DNA from: Leeuwenhoekiella polynyae
GTDB lineage: Bacteria; Bacteroidota; Bacteroidia; Flavobacteriales; Flavobacteriaceae
NCBI RefSeq assembly: GCF_004104075.1
Contig: NZ_QOVK01000007.1
Coordinates: 1-64,000, forward strand
Length of the DNA stretch: 64,000 bases
Reading direction: 5' to 3'
The notes below the pieces were generated by a model, which worked only from the letters and a program-made list of their open reading frames with translations, had not been told where the DNA came from and did not search any database. Below, in pieces: positions 14,258 to 21,177 of this stretch (position 1 is its first letter; each line of letters starts with the position of its first letter). A program made the position numbers and the translations under genes.

Positions 14258-14409
14258 TCAAATTGTGCCACTGATTTCGGTCGGTTAGTGCCAGGCATTT
14301 CGGTTTGAATTGTGCCACTTTCGGGTTTTTAATTAAGCCTGTATCGGTTCGATTTGTGCCACTTTAAAAGATCAAGTAAATAATACCTTGTCGCTTAAAA
14401 CTAAGCGAT

Positions 14410-15963
14410 ATGGCCAACACACTTGATCCAATGGACTTAAAACAGATAATATCCTTACACCTCGATGGGTTTAGTAACCGTAAAATTGGAGTTACCCTTG
14501 GGATCTCCCGCAATACGGTAAACACCTATATGCGTTTGTTTACGGTTAGTGACTATACTCTTAAAGAGTTGCTGACTCTTGATAATGCAACCTTAGATAA
14601 ACTTTTTCCTTCTCACAGCACTATTGACAACTCCCGGTATCAAGAACTGATGCTCTATTTTAAGGAGCTTAATCAAGCCCGTAACCATCCCGGGTTTACC
14701 TTTTTATACCATTATCAGGAGTATGTCTCCCAGTCTAAAAACCCGTATGGCTATACGCAGTTTATGGAACATTACCGCCGTAAGTATGCTAAAATCAAAG
14801 GCTCGATGAAGCTTGAGCACGACCCCGGCAAAGAGCTCTTCATTGATTTTGCGGGTAAAAAGCTTCACATTATTGATAAACAAACCGGAGAATTAGTTCC
14901 TATCGAGGTGTTTGTGGCCATTTTGCCTAACAGTCATTACACCTATGTCGAAGCCTGTAAAAGTCAGAAACGCGATGAACTGATCAACTGTTGCCGTAAC
15001 GCTTTAAATTTTTATGGTGGGGTACCTAAAGCTATTGTCTCTGACAACCTAAAATCTGCTGTTAACCGTGCCAGCAGGTATGAGCCCGAGATCAACCGTA
15101 GTTTTAAAGACTTTGCCCGGCATTACAACTGTGTGATCAACCCCACCCGAGGCTATGCTCCACAGGACAAGGCTTTAGTAGAGAATGCCGTAAACCTGGC
15201 CTACCAGCGTATCTATTACCCTATGCGCAAGATGAGCTTCTTCTCTATAGAAGAACTCAACAGGGAGATAAAAAAGCAGCTGGAGCATTACAATAACTTG
15301 TTGTTCTCTCGCAAGGAGTCCAGTCGCAGGGAACTGTTCCAATCGGTGGAGCAACAATACTTGAAGCCCCTTCCAGAGACAGCCTATGAGTTAAAAAGCT
15401 ATCGAAGGGCAAAGGTCCAGAAAATAGGGTATGTGTACTTCTCCCCAGATAAAAGCTATTACAGCGTACCCTACCGCTACATCGGAAAGGAAACCACCTT
15501 GCATTATACCCGTTCTTTAGTTGAAGTGTATTACCACTATCAACGCATCGCCCTGCATCAGCGTACCCCCTCAAAAGGCAGTTATAACACCAACAAAGAA
15601 CACCTGAGCAGCACCCACAAGTACTATAGCGACTGGAGTCCTGAATTCTTTAAAAAGAAGGCAGCCGTGCACGGGAAGCACGTGGTGGATTGTGTCGAAA
15701 AAATAATCACTGCGGTAGATTATCCTGAAATAGGGTATAAACGTGCTATGGGGCTTATTCAGCTTCATAAATCCTACGGCTCCCAGCGGCTGGACAATGC
15801 CTGTAAAAGAGCTTTACAAGCAGATGCAGCTACCTATCAGCGCATCAAGAACATTCTAAAAAACAATCTGGACAAGAGCTCGCTGTTCTATCAGGATCTG
15901 GAAGAAAATAAAACACATATCCCGGAGCATACTAACATACGCGGTGCTTCAGCTTATCAGTAA
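14410..15963 (+). CDS. istA: IS21 transposase IstA
   Basis: This 517-residue DDE transposase has an N-terminal helix-turn-helix (SNRKIGVTLGISRNTVNTYM) and an integrase catalytic core: ELFIDFAGKKLHI (first Asp), PKAIVSDNLKSAV (second Asp) and PQDKALVENAVNLAYQRI (Glu). A C-terminal beta-rich segment follows. The length is usual for IstA and the frame is uninterrupted. It is followed after 23 bp by istB. The element is probably transposition-competent as far as the reading frames show. Confidence 0.95.
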   Translation: MANTLDPMDLKQIISLHLDGFSNRKIGVTLGISRNTVNTYMRLFTVSDYTLKELLTLDNATLDKLFPSHSTIDNSRYQELMLYFKELNQARNHPGFTFLYHYQEYVSQSKNPYGYTQFMEHYRRKYAKIKGSMKLEHDPGKELFIDFAGKKLHIIDKQTGELVPIEVFVAILPNSHYTYVEACKSQKRDELINCCRNALNFYGGVPKAIVSDNLKSAVNRASRYEPEINRSFKDFARHYNCVINPTRGYAPQDKALVENAVNLAYQRIYYPMRKMSFFSIEELNREIKKQLEHYNNLLFSRKESSRRELFQSVEQQYLKPLPETAYELKSYRRAKVQKIGYVYFSPDKSYYSVPYRYIGKETTLHYTRSLVEVYYHYQRIALHQRTPSKGSYNTNKEHLSSTHKYYSDWSPEFFKKKAAVHGKHVVDCVEKIITAVDYPEIGYKRAMGLIQLHKSYGSQRLDNACKRALQADAATYQRIKNILKNNLDKSSLFYQDLEENKTHIPEHTNIRGASAYQ

Positions 15964-15986
15964 TATAACCTTTAAACACAGTAACT

Positions 15987-16724
15987 ATGAACAACAATCA
16001 GACTATTGAAAAATTAAAAGAAATGCGATTAGGGGCTATGGCTCAGCTGCACTTGCAACATCTTAAAGACAACCGCATAGCCGGGATCACTGCCGATGAA
16101 TACCTGGCTTTATTGACCGATCACCAGTGGGAAGACCGGCACAACCGCAAGATAGATAGGCTTTTAAAACAGGCCGGCTTTAAACAACAGGCCAGCCTGG
16201 CTGACATAAACTACTCACAGAACCGGAATCTGGATAAAAATATGTTTGCTCGATTAGGTAGTCTGGATTTTATAACCAGAAAAGAAAACATCATTCTTAC
16301 CGGTGCTTCAGGAGTAGGTAAGAGCTATTTAGCTCAGGCTTTAGGGCATCAGGGGTGTATGATGGAATACAAAACCATATACACAAACACAGCCCGGCTT
16401 TTTAAAAGATTAAAACTTAGTAAGGTCGATGGCACCTATCTTAAAGAACTGGGGAAACTCATCAAAGCAGACCTTCTAATCCTCGATGACTTTGGCCTGC
16501 AGAGTTTTGATAATCACGCAAGGGAAACCCTGATGGATATCATCGATGAGCGGTACAACAAAGCTTCCACTATTATATCCTCACAAATACCCGTATCCGC
16601 CTGGTATGATATTATTGGGGAAGGGACTATTGCAGATGCAATTCTGGACAGGATTGTAAACTCATCACACCGCATTGACCTAAAAGGAGAGTCTCTAAGA
16701 AAAGGAGCTTTAAAGAACGAGTAA
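15987..16724 (+). CDS. istB: IS21 helper ATPase IstB
   Basis: The 245-residue AAA+ ATPase assists IstA in target selection and strand transfer. Walker A is GASGVGKSYLAQALG (about residues 105-119) and Walker B is LLILDDFGLQ (about residues 159-168). A sensor region, ASTIISSQIPVSAW, and the arginine-containing DRIVNSSHRIDLKGESLR close the domain. The length and order behind istA are typical of the family. It was most probably co-transcribed with istA. Confidence 0.95.
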   Translation: MNNNQTIEKLKEMRLGAMAQLHLQHLKDNRIAGITADEYLALLTDHQWEDRHNRKIDRLLKQAGFKQQASLADINYSQNRNLDKNMFARLGSLDFITRKENIILTGASGVGKSYLAQALGHQGCMMEYKTIYTNTARLFKRLKLSKVDGTYLKELGKLIKADLLILDDFGLQSFDNHARETLMDIIDERYNKASTIISSQIPVSAWYDIIGEGTIADAILDRIVNSSHRIDLKGESLRKGALKNE

Positions 16725-16793
16725 CATTAATTTTATATATAATTGCAGTATCTTTTAAAGTGGCACTGTTTGACCGAAACAGCTGGCACCATC

Positions 16794-17010
16794 ACTCCGA
16801 AATAGCCAACAAAAGTACTTTTATATAAGCTTAACGCTTATCATTCCCCTTTTTGTAATCAATTCATTCATCACCCCAAAAATCACCTCTGTAGTAGAAT
16901 ATTTGTTAGAAGGTGTGATTGAGGAAAATCTTAATTCAAAAAAGAATACCATAGCCTTTGAATTTAACAGATATAAGCTGACAGCGTTACAAGATTATCT
17001 TACAAAATAA
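16794..17010 (+). pseudogene. 3' remnant of unknown gene beside IS21
   Basis: A plus-strand frame runs without a stop from the edge of the IS21 element to TAA at 17008-17010. Its product ends VEYLLEGVIEENLNSKKNTI...YKLTALQDYLTK and has a hydrophobic stretch before that (SLTLIIPLFVINSFIT). There is no start codon, and the family is not recognised. Because the other flank of the element holds a minus-strand HNH gene, the two flanks do not rebuild one gene. A deletion next to the insertion is likely. Confidence 0.35.
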
Positions 17011-17059
17011 TTTTAATTTAAGAGAAACATTACCCAGAAGTTAGGATAACAAAATTAAA

Positions 17060-17088
17060 AAGCCGTCCATTTTTAAACTAGACGGCTT
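17060..17088 (-). terminator. Rho-independent terminator of the ubiquitin/MACPF locus
   Basis: A perfect stem AAGCCGTC / GACGGCTT (17060-17067 and 17081-17088) lies 25 bp after the MACPF stop. On the minus strand it is followed by TTTTTAATTTT, the expected T-run. Confidence 0.85.
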
Positions 17089-17112: not shown

Positions 17113-18834
17113 CTATAGAGCTATAAGTAAATAATCGCGAAGGTTATCTGGGTTTATAGTCGTAGAAGGTAAAGATCCTACAAAATCTCTTATACCATAA
17201 GTATCTAAAATATAATCATCATAGATAGAGTAACCCAATTTTGTATCGTTTTCATCACTTAACAGATAAGTCATCCCATTATACACAAATTTTTTAAAGT
17301 GTTCTCCAATATTATTAGTCATAATATCGGAACCTACACCGAATTGATTAGCAAACATAAATGTTGTAAGAACCCCTCTATACATTAATAAATCATACAT
17401 TCGAGGCCCCATCCCTAAACTAGGCATTCCATGAACAAATTCCCCAACTATTTCCAATTTATATATATCAGAATATTTATCTATTAAGTTTTCTAGAAAT
17501 ATTCTTCTAGCATCTAAATTAGGTTCTCCATTTGCATAATAAAAATTATACTCACTATTAAGATCTCTTGACATTTCTAGTATTATATTATCGCCATTCC
17601 TCGTCCCTAGATGAACAACGCATGATCCTCTTGTAATATCATCCGCTACCCTTATGTATATTTTGGGTTCTTCTAAATTTTTTATTACAAAATCGCCATC
17701 ATAAAAACGTTCGAATCGTTTACTAAGATTGCGTTCAAGCATAAAATCACTCAAAGGTACTAATCCATTTTCTGAAATACCTATTAGAGAATGTGTACTT
17801 TCATTAGAGAGAGAATTACTCCAGCCTGATAAATCTATGCTATAGTTATTAATATTTTGGGGTGCTGAAAAACTTGATATATTGCCTATACCCCCAATAG
17901 TTCTAACGGATAATTCTAAATTTGTTATTTTATTTGAAAATGATTGGCTATTTGCATAATCACGTCCAATTCCGAAGTCAGCACCAACTTCATCTTCTGA
18001 GTCATCTGAAAAACCAAAGGATGCATTTATAGTGGTATTCATAGCACTTTCCTTAGTTTCAGTTTCTTCCGTTTCTGTATAAATACCAGTATACATTGCT
18101 TGAGCCTTACCTCCCGTAACAAAATCAGTCAACACAACCCCCCCATAGACACTAAATATTTGACTTGGAGTTCTATTATATAGCAACTCCTTAAAAGAAT
18201 CAGTGAGGTAGGTCGTAGATAATTTATTTACAAAATCTGAATCTGACAACATTTTATAACGTGCCTTTTTATATAAAATGTTCAACTCTCCAAAAACACG
18301 ATTGTTTTCAGAAATTTTGGATTCGGAAAAAATCTCTTTCATTGTGCTTTTTGCTCCTATCTTAAAAAGTCCTAGGCTTAATGAAAAACCACCGTTTATT
18401 GTGTTTGTTTTTTTGGAATTGGATGTATAGCGATCAAAATTTGAGTATGCAAAAGCATCGATGTTAGTTAAGTTTAATCCGTAGCTTAATATAAAATCTG
18501 AGTAGTCAGAAGATAATTTGTTCATATCTACAACAGGAAAACCCAAATCAAGATTATTTGAATAATCGATACTTTGAAGTTTATAGCTCCTTCCCAAATA
18601 ATCATCAAATGAAATTAAACCTTTAGTGGTTGAATTTGATCGTTCAATTAATGAACTATCATTATTTTCTAATTTACTTAGTACTAATGGTGAGTTTAAA
18701 TCTCGTTCTTTAAGCACAATAACCCCATCACTTTCTATATTATTTTCCTGAACATCATTCAAACTATCCTCATCACTACAAGAAACAAGAAAAACAACAA
18801 TTAATAGGCATAAAATCTTTATTTTATTATTCAT
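17113..18834 (-). CDS. MACPF-domain lipoprotein (candidate pore-forming toxin)
   Basis: This is a predicted secreted lipoprotein of 573 residues. The signal peptide ends with lipobox VFLVSC (Cys19), which places it in the outer membrane or on the surface. Residues about 75-370 match the membrane-attack-complex/perforin fold. KARYKMLSDSDFVNKLS and DSFKELLYN are followed by YGGVVLTDFVTGG (230-242), the MACPF signature Y-G-x-x-[YVF]-x6-G-G, here with Val where many members have His. Two clusters able to form transmembrane hairpins flank it, and SENGLVPLSDFM closes the domain. The C-terminal ~190 residues are an unassigned, possibly receptor-binding domain. Bacteroidales MACPF proteins (BSAPs) are known secreted antimicrobials. 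The gene lies 88 bp after the ubiquitin gene on the same strand. The toxin role is inference. Confidence 0.8.
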   Translation of the reverse strand: MNNKIKILCLLIVVFLVSCSDEDSLNDVQENNIESDGVIVLKERDLNSPLVLSKLENNDSSLIERSNSTTKGLISFDDYLGRSYKLQSIDYSNNLDLGFPVVDMNKLSSDYSDFILSYGLNLTNIDAFAYSNFDRYTSNSKKTNTINGGFSLSLGLFKIGAKSTMKEIFSESKISENNRVFGELNILYKKARYKMLSDSDFVNKLSTTYLTDSFKELLYNRTPSQIFSVYGGVVLTDFVTGGKAQAMYTGIYTETEETETKESAMNTTINASFGFSDDSEDEVGADFGIGRDYANSQSFSNKITNLELSVRTIGGIGNISSFSAPQNINNYSIDLSGWSNSLSNESTHSLIGISENGLVPLSDFMLERNLSKRFERFYDGDFVIKNLEEPKIYIRVADDITRGSCVVHLGTRNGDNIILEMSRDLNSEYNFYYANGEPNLDARRIFLENLIDKYSDIYKLEIVGEFVHGMPSLGMGPRMYDLLMYRGVLTTFMFANQFGVGSDIMTNNIGEHFKKFVYNGMTYLLSDENDTKLGYSIYDDYILDTYGIRDFVGSLPSTTINPDNLRDYLLIAL

Positions 18835-18872
18835 ATTTATAATGTATTTAGTTACGATTTTTTAGGAATATT

Positions 18873-18929
18873 TTATTTAATAATGCTATCATAACTTTCC
18901 CAATCAAATTTTCCAGTTCTTTCTAACAT
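18873..18929 (-). CDS. Tiny frame overlapping the ubiquitin stop
   Basis: An 18-codon frame starts at an ATG overlapping the last codons of the ubiquitin gene and ends in TAA, giving [18 protein letters not shown]. It fills most of the gap before the MACPF gene. It could be a small peptide, a translational-coupling leader or chance. Composition looks protein-like, but there is no other support. Confidence 0.2.
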
Positions 18930-19204
18930 CTAAGAACCATATGCAAAACATTCTCCTTCATTATATTATAATCACTCAAAGTCCTACCTTCTTCTAGTTG
19001 CTTACCTGCATATATTAATCTTATACAATCAGGAGGTATACCTTCTTTATCTTGAATTTTTAATTTAATTCTCTCAATTGTATCGCTGGATTCAGCTTCA
19101 ATGGTTATAGTTTTCCCTGTTAGTGTCTTTACAAAAATTTGCATTGAAAAAACATTAAGCGAAAAACCGATAAAAAAAACAAAAAATAACAGTTTAGTTT
19201 TCAT
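18923..19204 (-). CDS. Secreted eukaryotic-type ubiquitin with C-terminal cysteine
   Basis: The 93-residue precursor has a 20-residue signal peptide ([20 protein letters not shown]) followed by a 73-residue ubiquitin beginning [16 protein letters not shown]. Compared by eye with human ubiquitin, 58 of the first 72 mature residues are identical. Lys6, 11, 27, 29, 33, 48 and 63, and the Leu8-Ile44-His68-Val70 surface, are all kept. The chain ends LRC at position 73, so the Arg-Gly-Gly tail needed for E1/E2 conjugation is absent. Cys40 and Cys73 are the only cysteines of the mature form. The known counterpart is the B. fragilis secreted ubiquitin (BfUbb), a bacteriocin-like protein that also has a signal peptide and a terminal cysteine. 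A MACPF lipoprotein gene lies directly downstream. An IS3 element begins about 40 bp upstream of the start codon. Confidence 0.95.
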
Positions 19205-19283
19205 AATAAATATTTATAATTTCAAACAATATATAATTTTAAATCTGGACTTGCAACAAAAAACTGGACATTAAGTTGAGTGA

Positions 19284-20160
19284 CTATGCTGCTAGTTTTT
19301 GATTATACATTTTTATTTCAAATTCTTTAATGGTTCTGTTACCTAAATAAGAATGTCTTCTTCTGGTATTGTACCAGGTTTCTATCCACTGAAAGATAGA
19401 TAACTCTGCCTGTGATCTAAGCTTGTATTTATGCCAATATACCCATTCTACTTTCAGGGATTTAAAAAAGGATTCCGCTACGGCATTGTCCCAACAGTTC
19501 CCTTTGCGACTCATAGATTGTTTTACCAGGCCATTATAGCTTTTAAGTAGATTGGTAAATTTTTGGCTGGCATATTGAATACCTTGATCTGAATGGAATA
19601 TTAAAGGTTGGGTGAGTGTGGTATTTTTAATAGCCATTTGCCAAGCTTTTATAGCAGTACCCTCGGTATTTAGGGTATCACCTAAAGCCCATCCTATAAC
19701 TTTTCTGTTAAATAGATCAATGATCACCGTTAGGTAACTCCAGCCTTCTTTAGTCTGAACATAGGTAATATCGCTTACCCATACTTGATTAGCCCTAGCT
19801 ACATTAAAGCATTGGTTCAAAAGGTTTGGTGCTGTGGGATATTTATGGTCACTATCGGTGGTGGTTCTAAATTTACGCTTTCTCTTAGCGTATAAATAGT
19901 TTGCCTTCATTATACGGGCTACCCGTGGCTTTGACACCTTAAAACCTAGGGCTTTCAATTCAGCCTTTATTCTAGGAGCTCCATAGCTCTGGTAACTATC
20001 CTCAAATATATCTTTGATTAGTGAAGAGAGCTTCTGATTTTCTTTTCAGAGGGTGCTGGGACCAGATTTCAACCAGTGGTAATAACCGCTTTTACTCACA
20101 GCTAACATAGTGCACATCTTCTCAACAGGAAATTTCATACGATGCTGTTTTATGAACCTG
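19284..20160 (-). pseudogene. IS3 transposase OrfB, interrupted by TGA
   Basis: This is the DDE catalytic subunit of the IS3 transposase. The C-terminal core is complete: VWVSDITYVQTKEGWSYLTV (Asp), LIFHSDQGIQYAS (Asp) and GNCWDNAVAESFFKSLK (Glu). The N-terminal part (FIKQHRMKFPVEKMCTMLAV, then SKSGYYHWLKSGPSTL) is in the same frame but separated by an in-frame TGA at 20046-20048. The uninterrupted downstream stretch starts at 20045, and the first usable alternative start lies near 19958. The start of the OrfB frame overlaps the 3' end of orfA, as expected for frameshift expression. The TGA probably inactivates this copy. Confidence 0.85.
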
Positions 20161-20464
20161 TATTTTTCTTGTCGCTCGCGGAGAAGATGCCAATCGCCTT
20201 TTTTAATATATCACGTTCTAATTCGGCTTCTTTAAGCTGTTTCTTTAAACGAGCTATCTCTTTTTGTTCATCGGTCATTTTAGGATTACCACGACCCGGA
20301 AAACTATTCTTACCATAACTCTTTTGCTCTTTACGCCAGCGGTAAAGAACAGCAGGTAGGATATCTAGATCCTCACAAACCTGTGCTACACTGCCTTTGG
20401 CGTAACTTAATGCTACTGCTTTCTGCTTAAACTCTAAGGTGTAATGTTTGGCTTTACGTCTCAT
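20150..20464 (-). CDS. IS3 transposase OrfA
   Basis: The DNA-binding subunit is about 104 residues, starting from MRRKAKHYTLEFKQKAVALS at 20464. An 8-codon extension to 20488 is possible but less likely. It has the IS3 helix-turn-helix (KAVALSYAKGSVAQVCEDLD, then ILPAVLYRWRKE) and a leucine-zipper-like tail (EQKEIARLKKQLKEAELERD). It overlaps the start of the orfB frame near an A-rich stretch (AAGAAAAA), a plausible -1 frameshift site. Confidence 0.9.
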   Translation of the reverse strand: MRRKAKHYTLEFKQKAVALSYAKGSVAQVCEDLDILPAVLYRWRKEQKSYGKNSFPGRGNPKMTDEQKEIARLKKQLKEAELERDILKKAIGIFSASDKKNTGS

Positions 20465-20559
20465 AATTGCTAAGTTAAAAACTTGCAATAATATTCATTC
20501 AACTCTATGTCCAGTATAATGTAGTAATTCCAAATCAAAGTCTATCTAAAAAGCATTAA

Positions 20560-21177
20560 GATTCTGCTCATTCTAGGTATTTATATGATATTTCGAATCT
20601 ATTGTTTAGTTTCATTCAGAAGAGCCTAAACTTTTACCTAAAAGAAGAACAATTAATTGATTTATATATCCATGAGGTGACTCCCCTATTTGAGGTCTAT
20701 CCAGATCTAAATATTCCGGATGAACTGCACATAGATGAAGCAGATCATAGCGTTGATGCAGGAGCCGCTTTTGGCTATGTTGAAGTGAGTATGGGACTTG
20801 TAGAACTGGAAGACCCACCCATCCAAATTTTCGTTCTTGCTCATGAGCTCTCCCATATTGCTACCCTTACCCAAGCAGCGGCATTCAATCTAGGAGGTGA
20901 AATCCCAGCCGGGTCTGAGACCAACGACTATAAAAAAGCAGAATATTTAGCCGATTTAATGGCATTTTACTTAATCTCAAAAAACGAACCCGAGACCTAT
21001 GATCTGTTAAAAGAAAAATTGGATTATTTGGAAGAGTTGCTGGGGAATGGTGATTTTACCCATCCATCAGGAAGTTCCAGAATTGAATCCTTAATGAAAT
21101 ACCTAAAAGGAATGGATAACACTTCGAAAGAAACTGCCTTTTCTAATAGATTTAGAACGATATGGAGTATGAATTAA
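20560..21177 (+). CDS. M48-like zinc metallopeptidase, 5' end uncertain
   Basis: This is a predicted soluble zinc protease. The motif HELSH (HExxH) occurs at residues 81-85 counted from the TTG at 20602, followed by AEYLAD (residues 113-118), where Glu114 would be the third zinc ligand and the Asp completes the M48-type E-x3-D arrangement. There is no signal peptide and no membrane helix. No in-frame ATG precedes the conserved part. The frame is open from 20560 and could start at TTG 20602, or the true 5' end was lost when the IS3 element inserted 28 bp further left. It is otherwise an isolated plus-strand gene. Confidence 0.65.
   Translation, partial: DSAHSRYLYDISNLLFSFIQKSLNFYLKEEQLIDLYIHEVTPLFEVYPDLNIPDELHIDEADHSVDAGAAFGYVEVSMGLVELEDPPIQIFVLAHELSHIATLTQAAAFNLGGEIPAGSETNDYKKAEYLADLMAFYLISKNEPETYDLLKEKLDYLEELLGNGDFTHPSGSSRIESLMKYLKGMDNTSKETAFSNRFRTIWSMN

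Follow-up and report, generated by a model that had tools for sequence, protein, structure and literature searches.

The ubiquitin toxin of Bacteroides fragilis, BfUbb, reportedly carries a C-terminal disulfide and binds a peptidyl-prolyl isomerase (PPIase). BfUbb is cut at Met1 and inhibits strains of B. fragilis, and the data suggest that no immunity protein is needed (PMC5705921). The accessible portion of a further BfUbb paper describes a protein that lacks the terminal Gly-Gly and ends in cysteine; in vitro, its recombinant form inhibited ubiquitination and, if conditions were non-reducing, entered into a complex with human E1 (PMC3352274). Tyr119 of the PPIase is given as the residue that sets sensitivity to BfUbb in the available part of a paper citing the PPIase work (PMC12396204), and according to the excerpt at hand of another, certain B. 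fragilis strains are the sole producers of the ubiquitin toxin (PMC6671954). The BSAPs of Bacteroides are likewise bacteria-killing proteins (PMC12853789, in its accessible part; PMC5705921), and B. fragilis 638R makes both kinds of toxin from separate loci (PMC5705921). In the same accessible part, proteins that share D2 and D3, the C-terminal part of 3KK7, are placed together in one BSAP group, and the receptor of Bt_3439 is given as unknown (PMC12853789).

Here, a gene for a BfUbb-like ubiquitin is found directly upstream of a BSAP-type gene in the flavobacterium Leeuwenhoekiella polynyae, within an analyzed stretch of 64,000 nucleotides (the window). The features discussed below are as follows.

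18923..19204, minus strand: gene for a ubiquitin of the secreted type, 93 aa plus stop (open reading frame; PF00240, E=1.3e-27)
19145..19204, minus strand: signal peptide of 20 aa, predicted by eye, with a V-F-S end preceding ubiquitin Met1 and at the same place in alignment A3
18926..19144, minus strand: mature ubiquitin of 73 residues
19025..19027, minus strand: codon of Cys40, a position held by Gln in human ubiquitin; Cys40 is invariant across the 6 sequences of alignment A3
18926..18928, minus strand: codon of the C-terminal Cys73, with no Gly-Gly after it; the C-terminal Cys is invariant in A3
18835..18922, minus strand: 88-bp spacer between the ubiquitin and MACPF genes (hairpin z=-0.03, 90 of 200 shuffles equally stable)
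17113..18834, minus strand: gene for a MACPF pore-forming lipoprotein of the BSAP5a family, 573 aa (NF053771.1, PF20785, PDB 3KK7)
18778..18780, minus strand: codon of the lipobox cysteine, Cys19 (LVSC), followed by SDED (from the sequence)
18109..18147, minus strand: MACPF signature region YGGVVLTDFVTGG (alignment A5)
17060..17088, minus strand: terminator-like hairpin with a T-rich stretch after it, behind the MACPF gene (z=-3.13, 3 of 200 shuffles equally stable)
19265..20515, minus strand: IS3-type insertion sequence, ends approximate (open reading frames; rve domains; inverted repeat I1)
14356..16766, plus strand: IS21-type element on the other side, with istA/istB-like genes (open reading frames; transposase domains; inverted repeat I10, 17/17)
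20602..21177, plus strand: M48-like peptidase gene without its lipoprotein 5' end (82% identity to the copy in genome G144 from residue 25 on)

The ubiquitin reading frame is intact over 93 codons, and membership in the ubiquitin family is indicated by both the PF00240 profile match and the beta-grasp fold. The AlphaFold model (pLDDT 95.3) superimposes on ubiquitin with an rmsd of 0.4 over 73 residues. An NCBIfam identity as Rad23 was discarded, scoring 46.3 bits against a cutoff of 207.3. The first-pass annotation had described a mature protein identical to human ubiquitin at 58 of 72 residues, with all seven lysines, the Ile44 patch and a bacterial signal peptide; the alignment gives the same count (81%), the lysines and L8, I44 and V70 are all kept, and the 20-aa signal peptide, as judged from the sequence and from A3, ends directly at Met1. 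The chain terminates in V-L-R-C and, as the conjugating-type Gly-Gly is absent, the usual conjugation would be impossible. With a low GC content (0.287 and 0.31 in the ubiquitin and MACPF genes, where the window as a whole has 0.365) and a patchy distribution, these features bear out the proposal of a secreted-type, BfUbb-like ubiquitin in a flavobacterium. Searches by Foldseek and VIA-align returned no entry titled BfUbb among the matches listed; a PDB search gave, among the matches listed, other ubiquitin entries; and a Bacteroides 16S probe matched 0 of 344 genomes in the order of a Bacteroidales MAG.

Contaminating DNA, the concern raised at first pass, is an unlikely source, since the locus sits in a 173,556-bp contig (173.6 kb) of a complete genome and has relatives in cultured flavobacteria. 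The ubiquitin gene is the sole ubiquitin match in its own genome (4.79 Mb; rated 100% complete and 0.01% contaminated).

Cysteines are rare in these proteins: among 105 aligned ubiquitin rows, any cysteine within positions 1-72 occurs in 8, Cys40 in 7 and a cysteine at positions 73-77 in 9. Both Cys40 and a cysteine 1-4 residues past position 72 are found in six rows, all from the same family (the window copy, Tenacibaculum sp., Flavobacterium sp. KJJ, F. tagetis, F. notoginsengisoli and genome G601). These six form one Flavobacteriaceae clade (support 94/86, not starred) with a single change of state, in a tree from which columns 40-41 were omitted and whose alignment held no tail, although a basis of 72 columns resolves little. 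Within the clade, the window and Tenacibaculum copies are sisters with a support of 99/77 when columns 40-41 are included and 95/48 when they are not. At first pass, a grouping with BfUbb and other bacterial copies bearing signal peptides was to count as support; the window copy groups with the Tenacibaculum and Flavobacterium copies, but human ubiquitin is its nearest row on the measures of both identity (81%) and path, and the bootstrap of the first tree was still unsettled. The proposed gene transfer, from eukaryotes at some point, is likely, but the immediate source of this copy may be another bacterium, given the grouping with flavobacterial copies. In three Flavobacterium genomes (L030, L073 and L091) and in G601 the ubiquitin gene lies at one conserved place, the 20-kb locus of G601 being collinear with the other three, which suggests that ubiquitin in the Flavobacterium genomes examined was inherited and is not freshly mobile. 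The copy of Flavobacterium sp. KJJ (L030) has extra cysteines at positions 19 and 57, where a second disulfide would be possible.

In the ubiquitin fold, strands 41-45 and 66-71 lie side by side, which brings residue 40 near residues 72-73; both strands are present in the predicted model. The co-occurrence of two cysteines in an otherwise cysteine-poor, putatively exported protein suggests a disulfide that pins the tail, and a Cys40-Cys73 bond of this kind, resembling that reported for BfUbb, is probable from the sequence. Because the tail of the window copy falls three residues short of the length seen in most relatives, the geometry of such a bond is uncertain. The terminal cysteine also bears on a quite different reading, with a eukaryotic target (protists, or else an alga or animal as host) in which the protein would act as a mimic that jams conjugation enzymes, for example through disulfide bonding of this cysteine to the one in the active site of E1. 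The retention of 58 of 72 human residues, of every lysine and of L8, I44 and V70 would suit such a mimic, as would the inhibition of ubiquitination by recombinant BfUbb and its in vitro complex with human E1 (PMC3352274, in the portion available). However, pairing of Cys40 with the tail Cys would hide the free thiol that this mode of action requires, BfUbb inhibits B. fragilis strains (PMC5705921), and the neighboring gene belongs to an antibacterial toxin family; we therefore regard a eukaryotic target as improbable.

That neighbor was assigned to the NCBIfam equivalog family NF053771.1 ("BSAP5a family pore-forming toxin") with a score of 584.5 bits (cutoff 500; E=2.3e-175, residues 4-573). 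Pfam placed MACPF_D3 (PF20785) above cutoff on the 573-aa lipoprotein and returned no D2 domain model, and PF01823 (MACPF) scored 18.3 bits, under its cutoff of 21.5. Among solved structures, none but the Bacteroides MACPF protein 3KK7 (E=3.5e-56) was hit at E<=1. The YG...GG of the MACPF signature is kept, with the T-H of three relatives replaced by G-V (alignment A5). The lipidated N-terminal cysteine by which BSAPs are recognized is predicted here from the LVSC lipobox, and acidic residues behind a lipobox cysteine, such as the SDED found here, can act as an export signal. The accessible text of PMC12853789 describes a signal that comes after the cysteine. The AlphaFold model of this protein was left out of the evidence because it was poor (mean pLDDT 42.2), and PADLOC returned no match for either the ubiquitin or the MACPF protein. 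Plasmid relatives of the MACPF protein occur in Bacteroides and Phocaeicola (11 records with 30% identity over 74% of the query, and one more over 21%), and Pedobacter cryoconitis carries a relative with 34-35% identity (G695:C4:337980).

The MACPF gene follows the ubiquitin gene on the same strand after 88 bp, and the spacer (18835-18922) contains no hairpin beyond chance in 200 shuffles. The sequence suggests a bicistronic unit in which the two genes would be co-transcribed up to the hairpin behind the second, which was not among the results of a stricter terminator scan; a sigma-70 promoter scan yielded no more than chance. On both sides lie insertion sequences, which we take to be of the IS3 and IS21 families, and between them the only open reading frames of at least 60 aa are those of ubiquitin and the MACPF protein, leaving no third gene of that size. 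The two genes could be unrelated cargo, each working alone, or the ubiquitin could serve some other purpose at the cell surface, for instance in adhesion or as a protease inhibitor. Apart from the flanking elements, this would fit the varied roles suggested by the many bacterial ubiquitins fused to surface anchors and the finding that the genes stand side by side in no other genome examined, with the Pedobacter cryoconitis relatives of each on different contigs. We nevertheless consider it unlikely, in view of the shared strand, the 88-bp spacing and the terminator-like hairpin solely after the second gene, and because both toxin kinds are present in B. fragilis 638R, though at separate loci (PMC5705921).

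The insertion sequences also raise the possibility of decay, in which a locus damaged by transposons would no longer yield an active product. A gap of about 60 bp separates the IS3-type element from the ubiquitin start codon downstream of it, the transposase reads toward the ubiquitin gene, and the M48-like gene beyond the element lacks its 5' end. Neither reading frame of the pair is broken, however, and the key residues, the signal peptide and the lipobox are all preserved; decay is hence highly improbable. In the congeners L106 and L107 and in Tenacibaculum (L018), a gene of the same M48-like kind closes a row of SusC/SusD genes, with Pfam run on L106 and part of L018. The Tenacibaculum ubiquitin gene also adjoins this M48-like gene, together with a gene for a 218-aa lipoprotein, so that the window and Tenacibaculum ubiquitins, sisters in the tree, have a common genomic neighbor. 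There, the ubiquitin and 218-aa lipoprotein genes are flanked by two copies of the M48 3' end (97.7% over 399 bp; L018:8727-10751), in the manner of an inserted cassette. Near the end of the IS21-type element, window positions 16840-17012 hold an open frame of about 55 codons without a start. A 40-bp match of window positions 16982-17021 to the SusC gene of two congeners was considered as a remnant of a replaced operon and rejected, as it amounts to 85% over 40 AT-rich bases in another frame and the protein search was negative. The idea that the producer protects itself through loss of that SusCD operon is weak, because 11 of the 13 genus genomes, the producer among them, lack its SusD gene (E<=1e-60).

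Ubiquitin matches at E<=0.001 were found in 6 of 299 family, 7 of 395 phylum and 1 of 13 genus genomes, counts that include the own genome in each case (it is the sole genus match) and two weak matches. A scan of contigs gave 261 ubiquitin-encoding stretches, and among the best 80 of these, 66 have a predicted export signal directly ahead of ubiquitin, defined as a hydrophobic stretch with A, G, S or C immediately preceding Met1. The 66 loci span 12 named phyla (one archaeal) and one unplaced record, which makes the first-pass view that this combination was known only from B. fragilis too narrow. All 18 records not titled MAG pass the export rule (one is a single-cell genome), and all 14 failures are MAGs, for which eukaryotic contamination is possible.

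Among 82 fused ubiquitins (alignment A7), an autotransporter beta-domain is present in 18, a T9SS sorting domain in 7 and an IPTL-CTERM motif in 6 by Pfam or 7 by NCBIfam. Many large surface-type proteins begin with a ubiquitin domain, and some of them contain Ig-like or adhesin repeats. In five copies of the window's family (L002, L003, L004, L005 and L007) the ubiquitin runs into a C-terminal region with the Pfam T9SS sorting domain (checked singly for L002, L003, L004 and L007), and these may therefore use type IX secretion. In Pedobacter cryoconitis four ubiquitin genes stand in tandem (L040:9186-10588), all with a signal peptide and none with Gly-Gly, and three viral-collection contigs (L097, L098 and L099) have an identical ubiquitin region between a signal-peptide-like stretch and a short IPTL-CTERM-like tail. 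No phage record had a ubiquitin match, and no plasmid held a DNA relative of the cassette at the limits used. Two plasmid ubiquitin matches were obtained, in Ruminococcus albus (68%) and Pseudoalteromonas (31%); on a 420-kb plasmid of R. albus 7 a ubiquitin family gene lies three genes upstream of a dockerin gene (L129:3941-4681).

The adjacent pair was seen in no genome examined besides its own. The MACPF gene was absent from all four named genomes of the Cys40 clade that were tested and from the other genomes of the 299 in the family. It was present in 1 of 8 other ubiquitin-bearing genomes versus 6 of 395 phylum genomes (own included, and with a different query), and co-occurrence of the two genes across genomes is too sparse to test.

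Since the ubiquitin gene adjoins a gene of a bacteria-killing pore family, the two products may be weapons against rival bacteria, a function suggested for each by kinship. We put the probability at roughly 60% that the pair is a two-gene antibacterial cassette, BfUbb-like ubiquitin plus BSAP, aimed at close relatives. The signal peptide would export the ubiquitin, with cleavage at Met1, and the Cys40-Cys73 disulfide would form in the oxidizing periplasm, pinning the short tail to residue 40. Acting as BfUbb reportedly does, the ubiquitin would then bind and disable a periplasmic PPIase of closely related competitors, while the BSAP5a protein, as a putative surface lipoprotein, would open MACPF pores in receptor-bearing cells; the producer might be spared through a resistant target or a missing receptor. 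A more far-reaching version, a counterpart of perforin and granzyme, is a long shot: the BSAP5a pore would breach the outer membrane of a competitor and so let the disulfide-locked ubiquitin of 8 kDa into the periplasm, there to disable an essential folding enzyme, with ubiquitin serving as an exported interaction domain across many prokaryotic phyla and BfUbb as one specialized branch.

The bacteriocin-like role suggested at first pass is plausible and gains strength from the BSAP5a-family gene, which had gone unmentioned; this toxin-family neighbor and the two-cysteine clade make the locus more interesting than it had seemed. BfUbb-type ubiquitin is now seen in flavobacteria, including cultured ones, against the exclusivity to B. 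fragilis stated in the available text of PMC6671954. The delivery route of BfUbb, left open in the 2017 BfUbb paper (PMC5705921), becomes testable in a simple two-gene setting, and export signals on ubiquitins from 12 named phyla alter the background against which eukaryote-to-bacteria transfer is judged. Among titles and abstract openings, with subscription journals thinly covered, no published report of a ubiquitin/BSAP pair or of widespread exported ubiquitins was found.

Overall, as far as the published description of BfUbb allows comparison, the window ubiquitin shares with it a leader ending at Met1, high human identity, the lack of a terminal Gly-Gly and a C-terminal cysteine, as well as a low-GC segment and a gene carried by a minority of relatives. 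It differs in being closer to human ubiquitin (58/72, 81%, against a reported 48/76, 63%, for BfUbb), in its length (73 residues against 76), in its Flavobacteriaceae host and in the adjacent BSAP gene. The MACPF protein resembles the BSAPs, the BSAP5a family NF053771.1 and Bt_3439 (3KK7) as a lipoprotein with a MACPF-type region and a D3 C-terminal domain, whereas its gene lies in a flavobacterium and is coupled to a ubiquitin gene, and Pfam did not report D2. The autotransporter, T9SS and IPTL-CTERM ubiquitin fusions mostly share the export signal directly ahead of Met1; unlike the window ubiquitin they have C-terminal surface regions and, among the rows examined, only that of a Chitinophaga MAG (L028) has Cys40.
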